A stretch of DNA of 64,000 nucleotides from Geothrix sp. (GTDB lineage: Bacteria; Acidobacteriota; Holophagae; Holophagales; Holophagaceae), in contig JAUXSE010000011.1 in assembly GCA_030681515.1 (NCBI GenBank), positions 62,001 through 126,000 on the forward strand. The letters run 5' to 3'. Made by a program: the position numbers and the translations under genes. Under the pieces are notes generated by a model that made no database searches, was not told the DNA's origin, and saw only the letters and a program-made list of their open reading frames with translations. Position 1 is the first letter of the stretch; each line of letters starts with the position of its first letter. Shown here piece by piece: positions 8,729 to 19,595 of the stretch.

Positions 8729-9676
8729 ATGCGAGACACGGCGATTCTTCTCCTGAACCTGGGCGGTCCTGCGAACCTGGACCAGGTGGAACCCTTCCTG
8801 GCGGCCCTTTTCGGCGACCGGGAACTCATCCGGCTGCCCTGTCCGGCCTGGCTGCAGCCGCCCTTCGCGCGGCTCATCGCGAAACTGCGGGCCCCTGGCG
8901 CAAAGCGGCGCTACGCGGAAATTGGCGGAGGCTCGCCGCTGCTGCGCGAAAGCGCCTTCCAGGCCGCGGCGCTGCGGTCGGTCCTTCGCTCCGCGGGTCG
9001 CGACGAAGCGGTGAAGCTCTGTTTCCGCAACGCTTCGCCGCGGGCCGTGGGGCTGCTGAAGGCCCTGAAGCGGGACGGCATCCGGAAGCTCGTGCCCGTG
9101 ACGCTCTATCCCCACGATTGCCGCGCCACCACCGGATCGAGCCTGCGGGAACTGGCCGTCGAGGCGGCCAAGGCCGGCATGGATCTCCTGCCGGGCGTGG
9201 ATCACTACGCCACGGATCCGGACTACCTCGATGCCCTGGAGGCGCCGCTCCGTGCCGCGCTGAAGGAGCTGCCCGGCGCCACGGTGATCTTCAGCGCCCA
9301 CAGCCTGCCGGTGCGCCAGATCGAGGCGGGGGATCCCTACGAACGCGAGATCCACGCCACGCGCGATGCCCTCATGGCCCGGATCGGAGACATCCCCGGC
9401 GGGTACGTGCTGGCCTATCAAAGCCGCACGGGGCCCGTGCGCTGGCTGGAGCCACCCCTGAAATCAGTGCTGGAATCCATGGGCGGCAAGGATGTCATCG
9501 TCGTGCCCATGAGCTTCGTCAGCGAGCATATCGAGACGCTGCACGAGCTGGACATCGAGTACCGCCTTGTGGCGGAGAAGGCCGGCATCCGCACCTACCG
9601 CCGCATGGCCGCCCCCGGCACCGACCCCGCCTACATCCGCTGCCTCGCGCGGCGCGTCCTGGAGATCCTTCCATGA
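8729..9676 (+). CDS. hemH: Ferrochelatase
   Basis: The enzyme inserts ferrous iron into a porphyrin at the end of haem synthesis. The 315-residue protein shows LLNLGGP at the N-terminus, the metal-binding histidine in SAHSLP (H191) and the glutamate in VSEHIETLHELD (E266). It lacks the C-terminal cysteines of 2Fe-2S ferrochelatases and has no membrane anchor. The ATG at 8729 lies at the family start, though the open frame extends about 120 codons upstream. Its stop overlaps the hemG start (ATGA). Whether the substrate is protoporphyrin or coproporphyrin cannot be read here, but the partner resembles classical protoporphyrinogen oxidase. Confidence 0.95.
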   Translation: MRDTAILLLNLGGPANLDQVEPFLAALFGDRELIRLPCPAWLQPPFARLIAKLRAPGAKRRYAEIGGGSPLLRESAFQAAALRSVLRSAGRDEAVKLCFRNASPRAVGLLKALKRDGIRKLVPVTLYPHDCRATTGSSLRELAVEAAKAGMDLLPGVDHYATDPDYLDALEAPLRAALKELPGATVIFSAHSLPVRQIEAGDPYEREIHATRDALMARIGDIPGGYVLAYQSRTGPVRWLEPPLKSVLESMGGKDVIVVPMSFVSEHIETLHELDIEYRLVAEKAGIRTYRRMAAPGTDPAYIRCLARRVLEILP

Positions 9677-10938
9677 GTACCCTGATCCTCGGTGGCGGCG
9701 TGACGGGCCTCGCGGCCGCCTGGCATCTGCAGCGGCGCGACGAGGCCGTGGAAGTGTGGGAGGCCGGCGCCAGTGTCGGCGGGTGGATGAAGACCCTGCC
9801 CTGGGAGGGCGGACACATCGAGACCGGGCCCCAGGGTGTGCTGTGGCAGAAGGGCACGGCGGTGGACCGTCTCTTCGGCGCCGTCGGACTGCCCTTCAAG
9901 TCCCCGGGCACCGGTGCCCGCTGGGTGGGGAAGGGCGGTCGCCTCATCCCCGTTCCGGCCTCGCCCCCGGCCCTGATGTTCTCGTCCCTGATGTCCCTGG
10001 GCGCGAAGCTGCGGATGATGGCGGAACCCTTCATTTCCGTCCGCGACGCGGAGCCCGAGGAAGGCCTGTCCGCCTTCATCGCCCGCCGGCTCGGCAGGGG
10101 CGTGGCCACGGAACTGCTGCCGGCCATGGTGGCGGGCGTGCTGGCGGCGCCGCCGGAAATCCTGTCCGTGGACGCCATCCCCAAGCTGCGCCAGTGGGAA
10201 TCCACGGGAAGTCTCGTGAACGGCATCCGCAAGAGCGGCGTGAGCCACATGGTGGTGCCCGAAGGGGGCATGGGCCAGTTGCCCATCCGGCTCGCGGAGA
10301 AGCTGTCCTCGGTGCGCCCGGGGCTGCGCGCCGAGCGCCTGGAACCCTTGCCGGACGGCCGCTGGCGCGTGAGCGGTGGTGGCGAGGTGCGCGAGGCGGA
10401 TCGCGTGGTGCTGGCGCTCCCCGCCTTCGAGGCCGCGGCCCTGCTCGGTCCGGTGGCCCCGCGAAGCGCGGAGGCCCTGGCGGCCATCCCCTACACCTCC
10501 GTGGATCTCTGGCACAGCCGCCACGCGCCGCTGCCGGCCCTGAAGGACAGTTTCGGCTTCCTGATCCATCCGCCCGAAGGCCGCGGGTATCTCGGATCCC
10601 TGGTGCCCTCCTGGATGGATCCCCAGAGCGCTCCGGAAGGCCAGATGCAGCTGCGCAGCTTCATCGGCGGGGCCTTCGGCAGGCCGGCGGATCTGGAGAC
10701 CTGGGAGGGCATCTTCGCCCGCCTGAAGCACTGGGTTCCCGCCCTCGGCGAGGCCGCCGCCGTCCGCCACGAGCGCGCCGAACGCGCCATCCCCCGCCCG
10801 GAACTGGGCCACAGGGCCCGGGTGAAGGCGGCCCTGGACGGCCTGCCGCCCGGCGTGGACTGGCTCAGCAACGCCCGCTTCGGGCCCGGCGTGCGCGATA
10901 TCCTCGAAGGGCTGGAGGAATGGGTCCGCTGGAGATGA
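9673..10938 (+). CDS. hemG: FAD-dependent protoporphyrinogen oxidase
   Basis: This 421-residue flavoprotein (HemY/HemG oxygen-dependent type) oxidises protoporphyrinogen IX, or coproporphyrinogen III in some bacteria. The N-terminus is a dinucleotide-binding fold, ILGGGVTGLAAAWHL, followed by EAGASVGGWM. A conserved middle block MVVPEGGMGQLPIRLAEKL and a C-terminal LPPGVDWLSNARFGPGVRDI segment close the FAD site. Its ATG overlaps the hemH stop by four bases, so the two are translationally coupled and act in sequence. The window contains no other haem genes. Confidence 0.93.
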   Translation: MSTLILGGGVTGLAAAWHLQRRDEAVEVWEAGASVGGWMKTLPWEGGHIETGPQGVLWQKGTAVDRLFGAVGLPFKSPGTGARWVGKGGRLIPVPASPPALMFSSLMSLGAKLRMMAEPFISVRDAEPEEGLSAFIARRLGRGVATELLPAMVAGVLAAPPEILSVDAIPKLRQWESTGSLVNGIRKSGVSHMVVPEGGMGQLPIRLAEKLSSVRPGLRAERLEPLPDGRWRVSGGGEVREADRVVLALPAFEAAALLGPVAPRSAEALAAIPYTSVDLWHSRHAPLPALKDSFGFLIHPPEGRGYLGSLVPSWMDPQSAPEGQMQLRSFIGGAFGRPADLETWEGIFARLKHWVPALGEAAAVRHERAERAIPRPELGHRARVKAALDGLPPGVDWLSNARFGPGVRDILEGLEEWVRWR

Positions 10939-11726: not shown

Positions 11727-12614
11727 ATGAGCATACTGCCGCTACCCTCGGATCCGCCGCCGCTGTTCAAGGACCTGCTCGTGGAACCCGAGGAGGCCCG
11801 CTCCATCCTCCGGCCGCAGAAGGACGAGCGGTACGGCTTCGGATTCGCCCTCAGTCCCTACAGAGGGTGCGGACATGGCTGCCGCTACTGCTATGTCCGG
11901 GAGTACCCCAACGCCCTGCATGGACCCGGAGACTGGGGCGGGTGGGTGGCGCCCAAGCTGAACGCGCCGGAACTGCTCTGGTCCCAGCGTCACCGGCTCC
12001 ATGCCCAGCGGGTCTTCATGGCCTCGGCGACGGATCCCTACCAGCCCCTGGAGCGGCAGTACCGCCTGAGCCGCCGCTGCCTCGAAGTGCTGCTGCTTTG
12101 CCCCACCACCGAGGTCATCGTGCATACGCGCTCGCCCCTGGTGCTCCAGGATCTGGATCTGCTGCGGGCCTTCGGGGACCGGCTGTCCGTGGGCCTCTCC
12201 ATCCCCACGGACGACGACACGGTGCGCCAGACGGTGGAGCCCCGCGCCCCGGCCATCCCCAGCCGCTGGGCCGCCGCGGAGCGCCTGGCCACGGCGGGGA
12301 TCCAGGTCAGCATCGGGGTCGCACCCCTCATGGCGGTGCATGATGTCCAGGCGTTCGCCCGGCGCGCCAGGTCCAGCGGCGCCTCCAGTGCCTGGGTGGG
12401 CGGCCTGCGACTGCTGAAGCAGGATCCCTTCTGCAAGGTGCTGGCTGACCATGGCTGGCTGAAGGTGCTCGATCCCGACTATGTCAAAGGCATCCGCCAG
12501 GCTTTCCGCGAGGTGTTTCCGGTCCGCCGCCGGACCCCGGAGCGGCCCGAAAACGCCGTGGCGCCGCCCCCGCCGCCCATCCACCAGCCGGGTCTGTTCG
12601 ACCGCGTGGGCTGA
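11727..12614 (+). CDS. SPL-family radical SAM protein
   Basis: A 295-residue radical SAM enzyme of the SplB-like group (COG1533). The 4Fe-4S cysteines are in CGHGCRYCY (residues 48-56); FMASATDPYQPLE and VIVHTRSPLVLQDLDLL are typical of the family. Spore photoproduct lyase repairs DNA, but most relatives have no known substrate, so repair is only a hint. The last residues, HQPGLFDRVG, contain a Q-x-x-L-F pattern like beta-clamp-binding motifs. A proline-rich linker (APPPPPIHQ) precedes it. dnaX begins 32 bp downstream on the same strand. A TTGACT hexamer at 11693-11698 could be a -35 element, but no good -10 follows. Confidence 0.85.
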   Translation: MSILPLPSDPPPLFKDLLVEPEEARSILRPQKDERYGFGFALSPYRGCGHGCRYCYVREYPNALHGPGDWGGWVAPKLNAPELLWSQRHRLHAQRVFMASATDPYQPLERQYRLSRRCLEVLLLCPTTEVIVHTRSPLVLQDLDLLRAFGDRLSVGLSIPTDDDTVRQTVEPRAPAIPSRWAAAERLATAGIQVSIGVAPLMAVHDVQAFARRARSSGASSAWVGGLRLLKQDPFCKVLADHGWLKVLDPDYVKGIRQAFREVFPVRRRTPERPENAVAPPPPPIHQPGLFDRVG

Positions 12615-12646
12615 CGGACGCCCACTTGTGGGAGACTGGATCTCCC

Positions 12647-14263
12647 ATGACCACTCTCGCCCTCAAATACCGCCCCCGCCTGCTCTCTGACCTCGTGGGC
12701 CAGGAAGGGAGCGTGAAGGCCCTGGCCAACGCCCTGAAGCGGGCCAAGGAGAGCGGACGCATCCACCAGGCCTACCTGTTCGCGGGTGTCCGTGGCACGG
12801 GCAAGACCAGCACGGCGCGCATCCTGGCCCGGGCCCTGAACTGCGCCGAGGGTCCCACGGCCACCCCCTGCGGCGCATGCGATCCCTGCCGGGCCGCGGA
12901 GCAGCCGGACAGCAGCCTGGACATCGTCGAAATTGACGCCGCCAGCCGGGCCTCCGTGGCCGATGCCCGGGCCCTGCGGGAGCAGGTGCAGACCCGCCCA
13001 GCCTTCTGCCGCTACCGCATCTACATCATTGACGAAGTGCACATGCTCAGCACCGAGGCCTTCAACGCGTTGCTGAAGGTCATCGAGGAACCGCCGCCCC
13101 ATGCGATCTTCGTGCTGGCGACCACCGAACTCCAGGACGTGCCGGACACCATCAAGAGCCGCGTCCAGATCTTCCCCTTCCGCCTGATCCCCGTGGGCCT
13201 CATCGAAGGCCGCCTGCGGCACGTCTGCGAGCAGGAGGGCGTGGAGGCCGAAGGCGGCAGCCTGCGCCTGCTGGCCGAGGCGGGCCAGGGCTCCATGCGC
13301 GACGCCCTGACCATCCTCGACCGCGTCATCTCCGCGGGGGACGGGAAGGTGCTGGAGGAGGCCGTCCGCGAACAGCTGGGCATCGTCAGCGCCCATCTGG
13401 TACAGGGCGTGATGTCGGCCCTGGCCATCGGCGATACCGCGTCCCTTGTGGAGGCCTGCCGGGAACTGGCGGAGCAGGGCGCCGACTGGGCCACCTTCTG
13501 GCGCGAGCTCGTGCTCGCCTTCCGGGATCGCCTGGAGGAGGAGGCGCGGGCGGCCCGCGGGCCCCAGGAGCTGCTGCGCTGGGCGCGGATGCTGCATCTG
13601 CTGTTGAGCCGCGAGCGCGATCTGCGCGATAGCAGCCTGCCCCGGGTGGTGGTGGAACTGGCCCTGATTACCGCGGCCCAGCTGCCCCACCTGGCGCCCC
13701 TGGATGCCCTGGTGTCCGGAACGGCGGCCGCCGGGGTTCCCATGCGGCCATCCGGTCCTCCCGCAGGCCCGCCGCCGGTCCCTTTCAGGGCCCCCCAGGC
13801 CGCGCCGGCGCCTGAGGGGCCTCGTCGGCCGGTTCCGGCTCAACCTCCGCAGACCCCATCCGCGTCCTCCGCCCCGGCGGCGCGACCGGTGCCTGGCACG
13901 CCCGATCTCCTTCGTGCGGCGTGCAGCGAGGCGCTGCGCCAGGCACCGGGGTTGCGTGCCCTGTCCACCGCGCCGCAGATGGCCGCGGATCTGCGATGGG
14001 AGCCCCCCGTCCTCCGATTCCGCTTCCCAGGCAACGTCCGGCAGACTTTTCAGGAGCTCGAGCGGGAGAAGGCCAGTCCTCATCTGCTCGCCGCCCTGGC
14101 CGCGGTGCTGCCAGGCCTGGAGGCCGTGGACATCCACTTCGACGACGAGGGGAGTCCCGCGGTGTCCGATCGGCCGGAGGATCGCCTCCGCCGGGAACCA
14201 GCCTTCCAGGACCTGCTGCGCCTCAGCGGTGGCGAGGTGCTGGAGATCCGGCGCGAAGGCTGA
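12647..14263 (+). CDS. dnaX: DNA polymerase III subunit gamma/tau
   Basis: The clamp-loader ATPase that opens the sliding clamp and couples replisome parts. The 538-residue protein has Walker A GVRGTGKT (47-54), the zinc cysteines C66, C75, C78 and C81, the Walker B DEVHML (129-134), and the sensor block ATTELQDVPDTIKSR. After about residue 370 a long Pro/Ala-rich linker leads to a small C-terminal domain (LRWEPPVLRFRFPGNVRQTFQELE) that may serve as the tau polymerase contact. No A-rich slippery site for a gamma frameshift was seen. The ATG at 12647 with GGGAG upstream is preferred to a TTG at 12626. Confidence 0.95.
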   Translation: MTTLALKYRPRLLSDLVGQEGSVKALANALKRAKESGRIHQAYLFAGVRGTGKTSTARILARALNCAEGPTATPCGACDPCRAAEQPDSSLDIVEIDAASRASVADARALREQVQTRPAFCRYRIYIIDEVHMLSTEAFNALLKVIEEPPPHAIFVLATTELQDVPDTIKSRVQIFPFRLIPVGLIEGRLRHVCEQEGVEAEGGSLRLLAEAGQGSMRDALTILDRVISAGDGKVLEEAVREQLGIVSAHLVQGVMSALAIGDTASLVEACRELAEQGADWATFWRELVLAFRDRLEEEARAARGPQELLRWARMLHLLLSRERDLRDSSLPRVVVELALITAAQLPHLAPLDALVSGTAAAGVPMRPSGPPAGPPPVPFRAPQAAPAPEGPRRPVPAQPPQTPSASSAPAARPVPGTPDLLRAACSEALRQAPGLRALSTAPQMAADLRWEPPVLRFRFPGNVRQTFQELEREKASPHLLAALAAVLPGLEAVDIHFDDEGSPAVSDRPEDRLRREPAFQDLLRLSGGEVLEIRREG

Positions 14264-14501: not shown

Positions 14502-14529
14502 CAGCCTACAGCCTATCGCCCACAGCCTA
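14502..14529. repeat. Heptamer array at the tamB stop codon
   Basis: Four 7-nt units: CAGCCTA, CAGCCTA, TCGCCCA, CAGCCTA. On the minus strand the first unit reads TAGGCTG and supplies the TAG stop codon of tamB. The array fills most of the space between tamB and moaD. Confidence 0.6.
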
Positions 14530-17500
14530 TTTGGGGCTCCATGTGTGCCGGATCTCACCCGAGGGATTGAGCCCGGAAGTACCGCCCTTGCTGGCGCCCA
14601 GTTGGAGGATGAGATCGCCGAAGCGCCATTCCACCTGGCCGGAGGTGATGCTCAGTTCGCCACTCTTCTTGTGGGAGACCACAAAGGCGCTGCGCTGTCC
14701 GAAGAGGTTGATGCTCTTGCCGAGGGTGAACTCGGTTTCGGTCGTGCCCACGCTGGTGGTGCGCACGGCCACGTTCACGCGGTCCAGGCCGAGGGTCCTC
14801 CGCAGCTGCTCTTGCAATGGCGCGAACGCCAGGGTGGAGATGAGGCCGGATCCCGCGCTGGCCAGCCCCGAGGTGATGGCGCCCTGGGTGGCGCCGGTGG
14901 AGGCACCCGCCGTGCCCACGTTGGCCACATTCCCCGGGTTGATGAGGATGGCCACGATTTCATCCTGGCGCAGGCTGGGGGTGGAACTGGGCACGATGTT
15001 CAGGTTGCTCAGGGTGCCCCGGATGTCGAGGTTCACCGCGTAGCCCGGGATGGAACTGACACTCCCCTGGAGGGTGATGATGGGATCCATGGGCCGGGAT
15101 TCCGTGAAGGCCAGGGATCCCGCCGTCACCACCATGTCGCCGGCCGGGAAGATGTTGGTGATGCGGCCGCCCGGCTGGAAGACCATGGTGCCCTTGGGCA
15201 CGGGATGCGCCAAGGTGCCAAGGATCTGGAAGGGCCCTTCAGTGCGCCCCTCCAACTTCAGCAGATTGTTTTCAATGTTCCAGGGACTGCGGAGGTCGAG
15301 GTCCAGGTCCAGGCGGATGCGATCCAGCGGATCATCCAGATCCAGGCCCGTAAGGCCGCCGCTGTCGCTGAGGGCGCTGCGCAGGATCAGGTCGGACAGC
15401 TTGACTTCGGTCTGGTAGCTCAGGCGGTCAGCTCGCAACCTCCCCTTAAGCAGGCCGCCCTCCTCCACGCCATCCAGGGTGGCCTGGAGGGTGCCTTGGA
15501 GGTCCAATCCATCCGGCACGTCGCGGAGTTGAAAGTTGGAGAGGGAAGCCTTCATCGCATAGGCCTCGAGGCCTCCAAGCTGCCAGGTCACCGCGCCGCT
15601 GGCCTGAAGGTCCCCGTGGGCCAGGGTGCCGCGCATGGGATTTCCTTCCGGGATGGCGAAGGTGCGGTTCTTCAGCACCACCAGGGCCTGGAGATCCTCC
15701 ACACCCTGGTAGCCGCGAAGGTTCACCTCGCCCTTGGCCAGGGACAGGGTGCCGTCCAACTGCGGGTCGGCATAGGTGCCGTGGGCCAGAATGTCGAAGC
15801 GGCTGACGCCCTGCACCCGCAGCTCGGACAGCAGGCTGTAATCGTCCACCTCCATGACCCGGTCGAAGATGGATTTCACATGGGCGAGGTTGGCCGAACC
15901 CTGGACCTGGATGGCCATGGGCACCGAACCCGAAAAGGGGACGGTGCCTGACAGCTGGATACTGGCGGCCTGGGCGGCCGACTGGTCGGCGGGATTGCGC
16001 CCCCCCCCCTCCAGGGCGATGTCCACCACCGCGCCGAGGGCATCTCCGCGAAGCGCGGAGGGCCGTACCTGGTGGAGTTCGAAGGCATTGAAGCGGGCGA
16101 CCAGACGGTCGAGGGAGCCGGTCCAGGTCAGGTCTCGGCCATTTTTCCAGCGCCCCTGGACCTTGGCGTCCAGATTCAAATCCTCGAGGAGATCCTCGGT
16201 CAGACTCCGGGCGAGGGTTTCGGTAGGTGCGCTTTCGGGCGAGAGGTTCAAGTCGAGATCGCCCGAGAGATCGGGGCCATCCTGGTGGATCTGGAAGTGC
16301 AGGAGAGGACGGGCCATGTCCTCGACGCCGAAGCGGCCCGCCAATCGGCCCCGTTCCAGATGGAGGGTGCCTTCCAGGCCTTCCACGCTCCGGCCACCGA
16401 AAAAGATCCGCCCCCGGTTCAGGTCCATGCGTCCCTCGGGCAGATCCATGGTGCCAAAGGGGCTGGTGATGGGTCCCAGGAGGCGAGACTTGACCTGGGA
16501 CTGGATCCGGGGCCCGGGGAGGGCCAGCAGCTGGGAGTCGAGACGCCCATCGAGATCCACCCGCCAGGTCCAGCGTTGGAAGTCCATGTCGGCCTGCCCG
16601 GTGAGCGCCAGGGCGCCCTCGGGCGGACTATCCCCCAGGCCAAGCAGGTCAGGACGCTCCGCGATCCGCACATCCTCCAGCTTCAGCTGACGGGAATTCA
16701 GGTCCATGCGGAAGTCGGAAGAGGCCGCTGGAATTTTGATTCCGTAAGCTTCACTTGATTCAGTTTGCACAAAACCGTTGAATGCCAGTTGTTCATATGG
16801 GCCCTGAAGCCTCACCCATCCGGTGGCCGTGCCGGTGATGGGCAGATCCTTCCCCTCGCTGTCCTTCAGATCAGCGGCCCTGAGTCCTTCGGCCACCGGC
16901 AATCGGAAGGCGGTGAAGCACATCTCCGTTTGGGTCTGCCCGGGGGCGGTGCGGCCCCAGGTGAGCCAGATCTCGCCGCCACCGTGCCCCTCGTCCTTGC
17001 GGAGGTCAATGTCCTTCACCCAGAGGCCGGAACCCCGGATGTCCACCTTCGCCTGGAGGTTGTCCGCCTGGGCGCCATGCCAGCGCGGGTCGGTGATATC
17101 GCAGGATCCATCCAATTCAAGACCGGCCGCGCGGCTCCAGCGGACCTTGGCCTGGACCCTGGTCTGGCCGTCCATGTCCAGGTCCACGACCTTCCATGCG
17201 AGCAGGGCCCGGGCCACTTGGCTTGCGCCGACCTCGGCGCGGCCCTCGCCTTCCAACTGAACCAGGCCGTGAGGACCCAGGTTGCCCCAGCCCGAACCAT
17301 CCACCTTCAAGGCTTCGAGATCCAGGTTCATGCGATCCAGGGTGGCCCGGCCCCGGTCAAGGGAGGCCTGAAATCCACCGGCGTCCAGCCCACGCTGCGA
17401 AAGGGCGACCTTGAGGGTGACCTGCCACCGGTCCATGCGCTTGAGCGGGTCTTCGGTGCCGGGCCCCCTGACATGGGCCTGAACCGTTCCGCGAACGCCC

Positions 17501-18627
17501 TGGAACTCCGTAAGGCGCAGGGCGCGCCCGAAGGCATCCATATCGAGATTCGTCCCCTGGAGGGTGAGCAGGACCGGCGAGCGCCGGGACCAGCTTCCCT
17601 GAAGATCCAGCTCTCCCTGGGGCGAGGTCCAGCGCAGGCGGTCCAGCCGAACCTGCTCCAGCCCTCCACCGGCCTTGAGATCCAGGCGGCCCGGAAGGAA
17701 TGGGCCCGGGCGCGGTCGCAAATCCTGTCCCTCGGCGGCAAAGGTCCAGACGGGATGACTCACGGAACCCTGAAGGGCACCCGCAAGGTCCATGCTGCCG
17801 GTCAGGGGAGGGGGCTTGGCCCCACCCCAGCGGGCCGCCTGGGCCAGGTCCAGAACCCCAGTGAGGCGGGCCTCCACCCGGTCGGATGCCTGGGCGGTTT
17901 TCGCCTCGTAGAGGCCGTTCAGCCGGACCTGACTCTCCCCAAGGCGCAGATAGACCTCATGGAGCCTCAATCGGGGCTCCGAGGCCTCGCCGTTCAGATC
18001 CAGGCGGCCCTTCTCCCAGCCCCCCGGGCCCTTCACGGCCAGCTGGACGCCAGAGAGATCAAAGCGGACATGGTTGGGGCCAAGGCCCGTGGCCTTCGCG
18101 TCGAACTGGTACCGCAGCGCCGGGATGCCCCGCAGGGGCTCGGGCACATGGATTTCCCCGCCGATGAGGCTGAAGAGATCCAGCCGGAACTGAGGCAGGG
18201 GGCCTATCCGTGGGGGGCGGCTCTTGAGCTTGATCGCCGCGAGCCCCGCCTCGGTCAAACGCACGTGGGGGTGCTCCACCCAAACCGAGTAAAAGCGGCG
18301 GGTTTGGCCAAAAAGAGACCATACGTCGGCCTGGACCTCGATGCGCCGGACCGTCAGAAGGTCTCCGCCCAGCCGGAGGTCGTGGAGCACCACGGACCCC
18401 TGCGCGGGATGGAGCTCAATCTGCCCGATGACGAGCGGCAATCCCGTCTCTTCCCGGGCCAGCGCATCAAGCTGCCCCACGGTCCACCGAAGGACCGCGG
18501 GGCGCCTCACCAGCCACGGAGCCACGGTGTACACGGTGGCACCCGCCACCAAGGTATAGGCCACCCGCCGGATCCACCGTCGGCTCCAGAGCCGCTTCAC
18601 CGCGTCCTTGGTGGGATGCCACATCAT
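14527..18627 (-). CDS. tamB: TamB-like translocation/assembly module protein
   Basis: A 1366-residue envelope protein of the TamB/AsmA-like (DUF490) class. An N-terminal membrane anchor (VAYTLVAGATVYTVAPWLV, residues 22-40) is followed by a very long beta-rich region, consistent with the hydrophobic groove that moves phospholipids between membranes. The C-terminal 400 residues are the conserved DUF490 part: LDIRGTLSNLNIVPSSTP, QDEIVAILINPG, and an end with ETEFTLGKSINLFGQRS and LQLGASKGGTSGLNPSGEIR. No TamA gene is adjacent. The ATG overlaps the kinase stop by one base (TAATG). A second Met follows immediately and could be the true start. Confidence 0.88.
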   Translation of the reverse strand: MMWHPTKDAVKRLWSRRWIRRVAYTLVAGATVYTVAPWLVRRPAVLRWTVGQLDALAREETGLPLVIGQIELHPAQGSVVLHDLRLGGDLLTVRRIEVQADVWSLFGQTRRFYSVWVEHPHVRLTEAGLAAIKLKSRPPRIGPLPQFRLDLFSLIGGEIHVPEPLRGIPALRYQFDAKATGLGPNHVRFDLSGVQLAVKGPGGWEKGRLDLNGEASEPRLRLHEVYLRLGESQVRLNGLYEAKTAQASDRVEARLTGVLDLAQAARWGGAKPPPLTGSMDLAGALQGSVSHPVWTFAAEGQDLRPRPGPFLPGRLDLKAGGGLEQVRLDRLRWTSPQGELDLQGSWSRRSPVLLTLQGTNLDMDAFGRALRLTEFQGVRGTVQAHVRGPGTEDPLKRMDRWQVTLKVALSQRGLDAGGFQASLDRGRATLDRMNLDLEALKVDGSGWGNLGPHGLVQLEGEGRAEVGASQVARALLAWKVVDLDMDGQTRVQAKVRWSRAAGLELDGSCDITDPRWHGAQADNLQAKVDIRGSGLWVKDIDLRKDEGHGGGEIWLTWGRTAPGQTQTEMCFTAFRLPVAEGLRAADLKDSEGKDLPITGTATGWVRLQGPYEQLAFNGFVQTESSEAYGIKIPAASSDFRMDLNSRQLKLEDVRIAERPDLLGLGDSPPEGALALTGQADMDFQRWTWRVDLDGRLDSQLLALPGPRIQSQVKSRLLGPITSPFGTMDLPEGRMDLNRGRIFFGGRSVEGLEGTLHLERGRLAGRFGVEDMARPLLHFQIHQDGPDLSGDLDLNLSPESAPTETLARSLTEDLLEDLNLDAKVQGRWKNGRDLTWTGSLDRLVARFNAFELHQVRPSALRGDALGAVVDIALEGGGRNPADQSAAQAASIQLSGTVPFSGSVPMAIQVQGSANLAHVKSIFDRVMEVDDYSLLSELRVQGVSRFDILAHGTYADPQLDGTLSLAKGEVNLRGYQGVEDLQALVVLKNRTFAIPEGNPMRGTLAHGDLQASGAVTWQLGGLEAYAMKASLSNFQLRDVPDGLDLQGTLQATLDGVEEGGLLKGRLRADRLSYQTEVKLSDLILRSALSDSGGLTGLDLDDPLDRIRLDLDLDLRSPWNIENNLLKLEGRTEGPFQILGTLAHPVPKGTMVFQPGGRITNIFPAGDMVVTAGSLAFTESRPMDPIITLQGSVSSIPGYAVNLDIRGTLSNLNIVPSSTPSLRQDEIVAILINPGNVANVGTAGASTGATQGAITSGLASAGSGLISTLAFAPLQEQLRRTLGLDRVNVAVRTTSVGTTETEFTLGKSINLFGQRSAFVVSHKKSGELSITSGQVEWRFGDLILQLGASKGGTSGLNPSGEIRHTWSPK

Positions 18628-19595
18628 TAGTTCTTTTCGCCGCAGTTCGGGCAGACCATGGCCATCCGGGGCAGTTGCCGGTAGCAGAAGCGGCAGAGCC
18701 GCGCTTGCGAGGCGGCCCGCAGCGTCGGGTGGGGGCCCGACGAGGATGAGGCCAGCACGGCGGTTCCGAGCGGGCGGGTCTCCCGGGCGACACTGTCCTT
18801 CAGGCGGCGGAGCGCCTCCAGGAGTGCCTGGGCGGAGAGGTACCGCTCACCCAGGTTCACCGCGAGGGCCTTCATGACCACCTCCGAAAAGGCTTTGGGC
18901 ACGATGGGGTTCCGCAGGTGCGGTGCCACGATCTGCTGGCTGGTGAAGGCCTGGGCAATCTTCAGTGGATCCGCGTCGTAGAAGGGCACGGTGCCCGTGA
19001 GCATCTCGTAGAGCGTGATGCCCAGCGACCACAGGTCGGATTGGAACACGGCCCGGCCACGGAAATGCTCGGGCGCCATGTAGGGTGGCGATCCGATCCG
19101 CGTGGGCGCGTAGGGGACATGCTGCATCTCCAGCACGCGGGAGGTGCCGAAGTCCGTGACCTTGGCCACGCCATCACGGTTCACCAGGATGTTGGCCGGG
19201 CGGAGGTCGCGATGGAGGATCTGGTGGCCGTGGGCGAAGGCGATGGCGCTGCATACGTCCAGCCCGATCTCGAGGGCCCGGGTCGGTGGCAGGGACCGTT
19301 CGCGGCGGATGAGGCGGTCGAGGCCCTCGCCCTCTACCAGTTCCAGCACCATGAAGAAGATGCCGTTCTTCCGCTCGACGGTGATGAGCTCGACGATATT
19401 CGGATGCTTCAGGCCCGCCATGATGCGCGGCTCCTTCAGCAGATCCACGATCTCGTCCTGCTGCTGGTGGGGCACTTTCAGCGCCACCTTGCGATTCACC
19501 CAGGTGTCCATGGCCAGGTAGACGGCCCCGAAACCGCCGGAACCCAGGCGGTCCAGGATCTGGTATTTGCCCAGGGTCTGGTCCTTGGATAGCAC
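18627..19595 (-). CDS. Serine/threonine protein kinase with C-terminal zinc ribbon
   Basis: A 322-residue soluble Hanks-type kinase. The glycine loop GSGGFGAVY (18-26), the catalytic lysine in VALK (K40), HRDLRPAN (128-135) and DFG (148-150) are present. The usual HRDLKPxN lysine is arginine here, an unusual swap at a residue that contacts ATP phosphate. The C-terminus has C301, C304, C315 and C318 (CRFC and CPNC), a small zinc ribbon that could bind a partner. There is no transmembrane segment. The tamB start overlaps its stop, so expression of the two is coupled. A terminator separates it from rpoD upstream. Confidence 0.88.
   Translation of the reverse strand: MLSKDQTLGKYQILDRLGSGGFGAVYLAMDTWVNRKVALKVPHQQQDEIVDLLKEPRIMAGLKHPNIVELITVERKNGIFFMVLELVEGEGLDRLIRRERSLPPTRALEIGLDVCSAIAFAHGHQILHRDLRPANILVNRDGVAKVTDFGTSRVLEMQHVPYAPTRIGSPPYMAPEHFRGRAVFQSDLWSLGITLYEMLTGTVPFYDADPLKIAQAFTSQQIVAPHLRNPIVPKAFSEVVMKALAVNLGERYLSAQALLEALRRLKDSVARETRPLGTAVLASSSSGPHPTLRAASQARLCRFCYRQLPRMAMVCPNCGEKN

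Follow-up and report, generated by a model that had tools for sequence, protein, structure and literature searches.

We propose that a radical SAM enzyme with the fold of spore photoproduct lyase (SPL), encoded next to dnaX in a Geothrix-type genome, is probably tethered to the sliding clamp DnaN by a flexible C-terminal tail and acts on DNA. The initial annotation had suspected such a tether; the suspicion was well founded and understated, as the tail is a family-wide feature. The window, which is the whole 64,000-nucleotide stretch analyzed, is part of contig C20 in a 3.2-Mb Holophagaceae (Geothrix-type, Acidobacteriota) genome. The gene and the segments considered here are as follows:

11727..12614, + strand: radical SAM gene, SPL-like fold, PA0069/Rv2578c relative (295 aa)
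11868..11891, + strand: CX3CX2C [4Fe-4S] motif, C48-G-H-G-C52-R-Y-C55, with Tyr54 as the SPL Tyr96 equivalent
12519..12584, + strand: Arg/Pro-rich variable linker, residues 265-286 (predicted disorder and 37% mean identity within Holophagaceae)
12585..12599, + strand: clamp-type C-terminal motif QPGLF, residues 287-291 (conservation and tail position)

Fold and active-site residues

The product of ORF 11727-12614 matches the Pfam radical SAM family PF04055 (E 9.6e-12; 45.8 bits, above the gathering cut-off of 29.5). In the translated ORF the C-terminal residues are PPPPPIHQPGLFDRVG, so that the protein ends in QPGLFDRVG after a Pro-rich linker, as originally described. In the AlphaFold model the core is confident (mean pLDDT 87, pTM 0.83) and the tail is disordered (pLDDT 52-67 over residues 271-290), which leaves the clamp-type peptide at 287-291 accessible. 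In a canonical member from Roseibium, the last seven residues likewise have a pLDDT under 50. It is unlikely that the tail is an intrinsic part of the fold, given its disorder in both AlphaFold models.

The SPL-like character of the protein was borne out by its predicted structure. Among solved structures SPL matches best (Z 19.7, rmsd 3.4 Å over 247 residues), in agreement with Foldseek, and the next family is NifB (Z 15.8). With SplB (PDB 4FHC), the nearest solved fold, the protein shares the CX3CX2C motif, the Tyr before the third Cys, and the EP and R motifs, despite an identity of about 15%. In a joint alignment with SPL, the cluster cysteines are kept in 133/133 family representatives and the Tyr preceding the third Cys in 132/133, and the position of SPL Tyr98 is occupied by Tyr or Phe.

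The family differs from SPL at the position of Cys140, the hydrogen donor of SPL, whose mutants are named in PDB titles among the structural matches. This position is Ala in 52 of the 133 representatives, Asn in 47, Val in 24, another residue in 10, and Cys in none. Thus, the enzyme is SPL-like in fold and should not be called SPL, and SPL chemistry should not be assumed. A true SPL repairing 5-thyminyl-5,6-dihydrothymine by the SPL mechanism would account for the fold, the CX3CX2C motif and the nearly invariant Tyr96 equivalent; nevertheless, we regard it as very improbable, because Cys140 is replaced throughout and the SPL family profile TIGR04070 scores 13.6 bits against a cut-off of 400. 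In addition, the host bacteria are not known to form spores. SPL itself has no such tail and ends in YVQYFT.

By sequence, the closest annotated families are PA0069 and Rv2578c, which have the same core motifs and, in their canonical members, the same kind of C-terminal clamp motif. The scores are 135.8 bits for NF033668 (PA0069; curated cut-off 360) and 94.4 bits for NF038135 (Rv2578c; curated cut-off 430). The protein is therefore a relative rather than a curated member of either family, and the Holophagaceae proteins form their own clade, far below both cut-offs. No function for the PA0069 or Rv2578c families was found, and the papers naming either do so incidentally.

Conservation of the tail within Holophagaceae

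Conservation of the motif in close orthologues was examined in 54 unique Holophagaceae sequences. The linker, of about 25 residues, is hypervariable (on average 37% identical to the window protein, versus 81% for the core), whereas QPGLF is kept in all but a few orthologues, its positions Q/P/G/L/F being conserved at 94/93/80/100/100%. The exceptions have His in place of Gln or an insertion giving QPGLPGLF (L024 and L071). The residues following the motif vary in length and sequence (DRVG, DADVLPPLVGD, EGII, or none), as expected for a short linear motif. All degenerate codon positions are variable among the 39 sequences that have QPGLFD, which points to selection on the peptide. Two loci are irregular: in L083 the third cluster Cys is changed to Gly, by sequence error or in a dead copy, and in L086 the tail is lost at an ambiguous base.

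Conservation of the tail across the wider family

The set of relatives was drawn from the genomes of 396 Acidobacteriota, 150 Pseudomonadota, 118 Bacteroidota and 101 Chloroflexota, plus genome contigs and plasmids; the searches outside Acidobacteriota were centered on loci recorded as Roseibium, as a Bacteroidia bacterium and as a Chloroflexi bacterium. The motif was scored in the last 15 residues of 133 representatives, non-redundant at 75% identity. A clamp-type pentamer or hexamer is present in 105 of them, compared with about 2 expected from shuffled tails and about 0.1 from internal windows, and it typically lies 0-2 residues from the C-terminus. Its carriers comprise 10/12 representatives from Holophagaceae, 21/23 from Acidobacteriota PA0069, 21/23 from Pseudomonadota, 20/23 from Bacteroidota, 16/20 from Chloroflexota and 17/32 from the intermediate Acidobacteriota, about half of which thus lack the motif.

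The tails of the relatives end in QLSLF, QLDLF, QLKLF, QMSLF, QPGLF or QQRLF, those of Chloroflexota have the hexamer forms QLALPI and QLALPL, and actinomycete and Rv2578c-type members have QLTLL, QLRLL, QEPLF or QESLF. Single tails include QLSLGI in Gemmatirosa, QLSLL in S. meliloti, QLRLF in Aeromonas and QLDLF in Legionella. Overall, motif-bearing PA0069 and Rv2578c relatives span Pseudomonadota, Bacteroidota, Acidobacteriota, Chloroflexota and Actinomycetota. The motif is absent from more remote paralogues (several Bacillota, Runella, TcmP-linked haloarchaeal and Nostoc proteins, and the mobile pair protein B); the haloarchaeal and ATV relatives belong to other subfamilies without such a tail.

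As a background we used 1801 other long ORFs (at least 200 aa) from the loci of the relatives, many of them spurious. In their last 15 residues, the loose motif occurs in 7/1801, and the strict form Q[LM]xLF in 0/1801 versus 46/133 family members. A chance motif is rejected on the grounds of the synonymous codon variation and of this excess over shuffled tails and other ORFs. Short motifs are degenerate, and the tail could be a lookalike whose real docking site is on a different protein, such as a DNA-repair helicase or a dimer partner, or within the enzyme. We consider this improbable, since QLxLF and QLxLPL/QLALPI are both found repeatedly over the tree, at the very C-terminus, the tails are predicted to be disordered, and the strict form is missing from the background ORFs. 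We know of no other partner that would explain the recurrence of both forms accepted by the clamp.

The same counts bear on a tRNA- or RNA-modifying radical SAM enzyme with an incidental tail. The RNA enzymes RlmN and TYW1 do appear further down the list of fold matches, but about 5 Z units below SPL, and a motif present in 105/133 representatives against about 2 expected is not incidental; there is little to recommend this reading. The initial annotation had left open a DNA-lesion or a tRNA enzyme: DNA is favored by the SPL fold and the clamp motif, and nothing found in this analysis supports a tRNA substrate.

When pentamer and hexamer are placed on one tree (FastTree, built without the tails and with many weak branches), 14 changes are required for presence/absence and 19 for three states. 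On this tree the Holophagaceae clade branches near motif-less Bacillota proteins, a placement from which the Geothrix tail may have been either retained or gained independently.

Several mobile copies were observed. A scan of viral contigs for relatives returned none, and a family relative on the fecal bacteriophage scaffold MT835833.1 (L292) ends in DQMSLFE, which suggests retention of the clamp-type tail in a phage copy as well. SPL-like radical SAM genes without the clamp-type tail are found on haloarchaeal and Nostoc plasmids (L260-L263, L267), often paired or adjoining tcmP (three-Cys-motif partner). On a Runella plasmid (L268), a tail-less relative lies directly upstream of a UvrD-helicase-domain gene, after HipA-type genes.

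Clamp-binding peptides and the clamp of the same genome

The bacterial clamp-binding consensus is QL[S/D]LF, or more broadly QxxLF (PMC12309361; see also PMC9690074). For the E. coli clamp, the peptide QLDLF has an affinity of about 7 nM, and tight binding is also seen with QLSLPL, the hexamer of Hda (PMC12309361). The reading of QxxLF near the C-terminus as a clamp-binding form therefore agrees with the published consensus, and both forms, pentamer and hexamer, occur in the family tails, including those of distant relatives. A Gly at position 3 is reported to weaken clamp binding (PMC12309361); since QPGLF has Gly at this position, a moderate affinity is expected. The arrangement is that of MutS, Pol IV, Pol V, PolC and Hda, in which a QxxLF or QLxLPL peptide is likewise C-terminal or linker-borne.

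The genome encodes one DnaN (PF02768; contig C34 of G000), with the segments TDGFRLAV and MPVRF, which we take, by comparison with E. coli beta, to form the peptide pocket. MutS of the same genome (L286, contig C1) carries SQPLLPLFEAEP about 41 residues before its end, at the place that the clamp motif occupies in E. coli MutS. This MutS segment is a QP..LF-type variant similar to the radical SAM tail variant QPGLPGLF. A permissive 17-base pattern has 8 matches in the genome, and the radical SAM match is the only one located in a long ORF's C-terminal tail. DnaE1 (L276, contig C7) contains GDTGMTSLFDD, with LF and without the usual Gln at the expected place of the clamp motif. No DinB/Pol IV was found in this genome with the PF11799 profile. 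On contig C46 (L277:2259-7180), dnaE2 is preceded by a short ImuB-like protein of 389 aa with the IMS domain only; this ImuB-DnaE2 cassette has no recognizable little-finger domain or clear clamp motif, and the genome has no PF11799 IMS_C match.

Proposed role of the enzyme

We propose that, behind the catalytic domain (approximately residues 15-265), a disordered linker carries the QPGLF peptide, which would dock in the pocket of the sliding clamp DnaN where partner proteins bind. So tethered, the enzyme would stay on DNA that has just been replicated or repaired, at or behind the fork, where the 5'-deoxyadenosyl radical could be used to repair or modify a DNA base. The parts of this proposal differ in strength. 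Binding to DnaN is predicted with high confidence. DNA is the likely substrate, because the SPL fold and the clamp motif occur together. Reversal of a lesion, rather than another base modification, is a guess to which we give slightly less than an even chance.

For the family as a whole, the conservation of the tail across many bacterial phyla means that these enzymes probably work on DNA beside the replication machinery. A more specific reading is that the PA0069/Rv2578c superfamily, including the Geothrix protein, consists of clamp-recruited, replisome-coupled DNA repair or base-modification enzymes, with a chemistry other than that of SPL because the hydrogen-donor Cys is missing; we consider the case for it evenly balanced.

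A clamp motif predicts a partner, not a substrate. The enzyme might thus be bound to the clamp without acting on DNA, either by modifying DnaN or a clamp-bound protein, or by regulating clamp traffic through competition for the pocket. Protein-acting radical SAM enzymes do share the fold class, with SkfB, PFL activase, LIAS and SuiB among the structural matches. However, the nearest fold is clearly that of a DNA lyase, SPL (Z 19.7), and the known clamp-binding enzymes listed in PMC9690074 are DNA enzymes, so that we find this alternative unlikely. In its pure-competition version, it is further disfavored by the invariant Cys motif, TxD-Y-Q and EP residues, which argue for catalysis. Action on DNA from the clamp thus remains our preferred reading.

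Among the clamp binders that PMC9690074 lists there is no radical SAM enzyme. The initial annotation regarded a radical SAM enzyme tethered to the clamp as new, and we found no report of such a link in the open-license literature, nor any in the titles and abstracts of papers matching radical SAM with sliding clamp; an earlier mention elsewhere is possible. SplB-like radical SAM proteins have been linked by gene neighborhood to ImuB-C, DUF4130 and SOS genes (PMC3765255). These are also predicted DNA-repair radical SAM proteins tied to SOS functions. The argument there is one of neighborhood, and the clamp is unmentioned.

Both PA0069 and Rv2578c are widespread, conserved families that have been little studied. 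If true, a clamp-binding tail would place them at sites of replication or repair, and radical SAM chemistry would join the activities that the clamp serves. It would also suggest that non-sporulating bacteria have a direct-reversal or base-modifying activity.

Gene neighborhood and dnaX

The genes flanking the radical SAM gene in the window are as follows:

8729..9676, + strand: ferrochelatase hemH (PF00762, 7.4e-87)
9685..10938, + strand: flavin amine oxidase family protein, hemG-like by position and family (PF01593, 3.6e-27)
12647..14263, + strand: dnaX, clamp loader subunit tau/gamma (TIGR02397, 358.6 bits, above cut-off)

The distance of 32 bp to dnaX given in the initial annotation was confirmed, counting from the radical SAM stop to the first dnaX ATG at 12647; an in-frame alternative TTG lies at 12626. 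The order hemH-oxidase-rSAM-dnaX is conserved in Holophagaceae and represents an old gene order of this group. Synteny with dnaX holds there, with dnaX directly next in 27 loci, but is interrupted in 13 other Holophagaceae loci, where dnaX is 4.5-5.1 kb away, and it does not extend to the wider family: no dnaX match was found within 1.5 kb of the gene in 30 other Acidobacteriota members. In the one gapped locus inspected (L063:6927-11324), an antiparallel glutamate synthase gene (gltB) lies between the two genes; a similar 4.5-5.1 kb gap is seen in 12 further Geothrix-type loci. Linkage to dnaX is thus rejected as a family rule, being absent outside Holophagaceae and broken by gltB in part of Geothrix.

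As dnaX adjacency does not reach beyond Holophagaceae and is broken up in part of Geothrix, it is weak evidence, and we regard neighborhood linkage as mild support for the clamp reading. A DNA-level dnaX signal as the cause of the motif's conservation is also rejected, as third codon positions vary freely and loci in which dnaX is missing or 4.5 kb away still have the motif. Outside Holophagaceae the neighbors differ and are mostly unrelated to DNA. Exceptions are rnhB, which adjoins the gene in 9 loci of Pseudomonadota, and polX, seen in Legionella adelaidensis.

Further along the window, a TamB-like giant protein is encoded at 14527-18627 (- strand). It adjoins the ORF at 18627-19595 (- strand), whose product resembles, by eye, a Ser/Thr protein kinase with a C-terminal zinc-ribbon-like segment.
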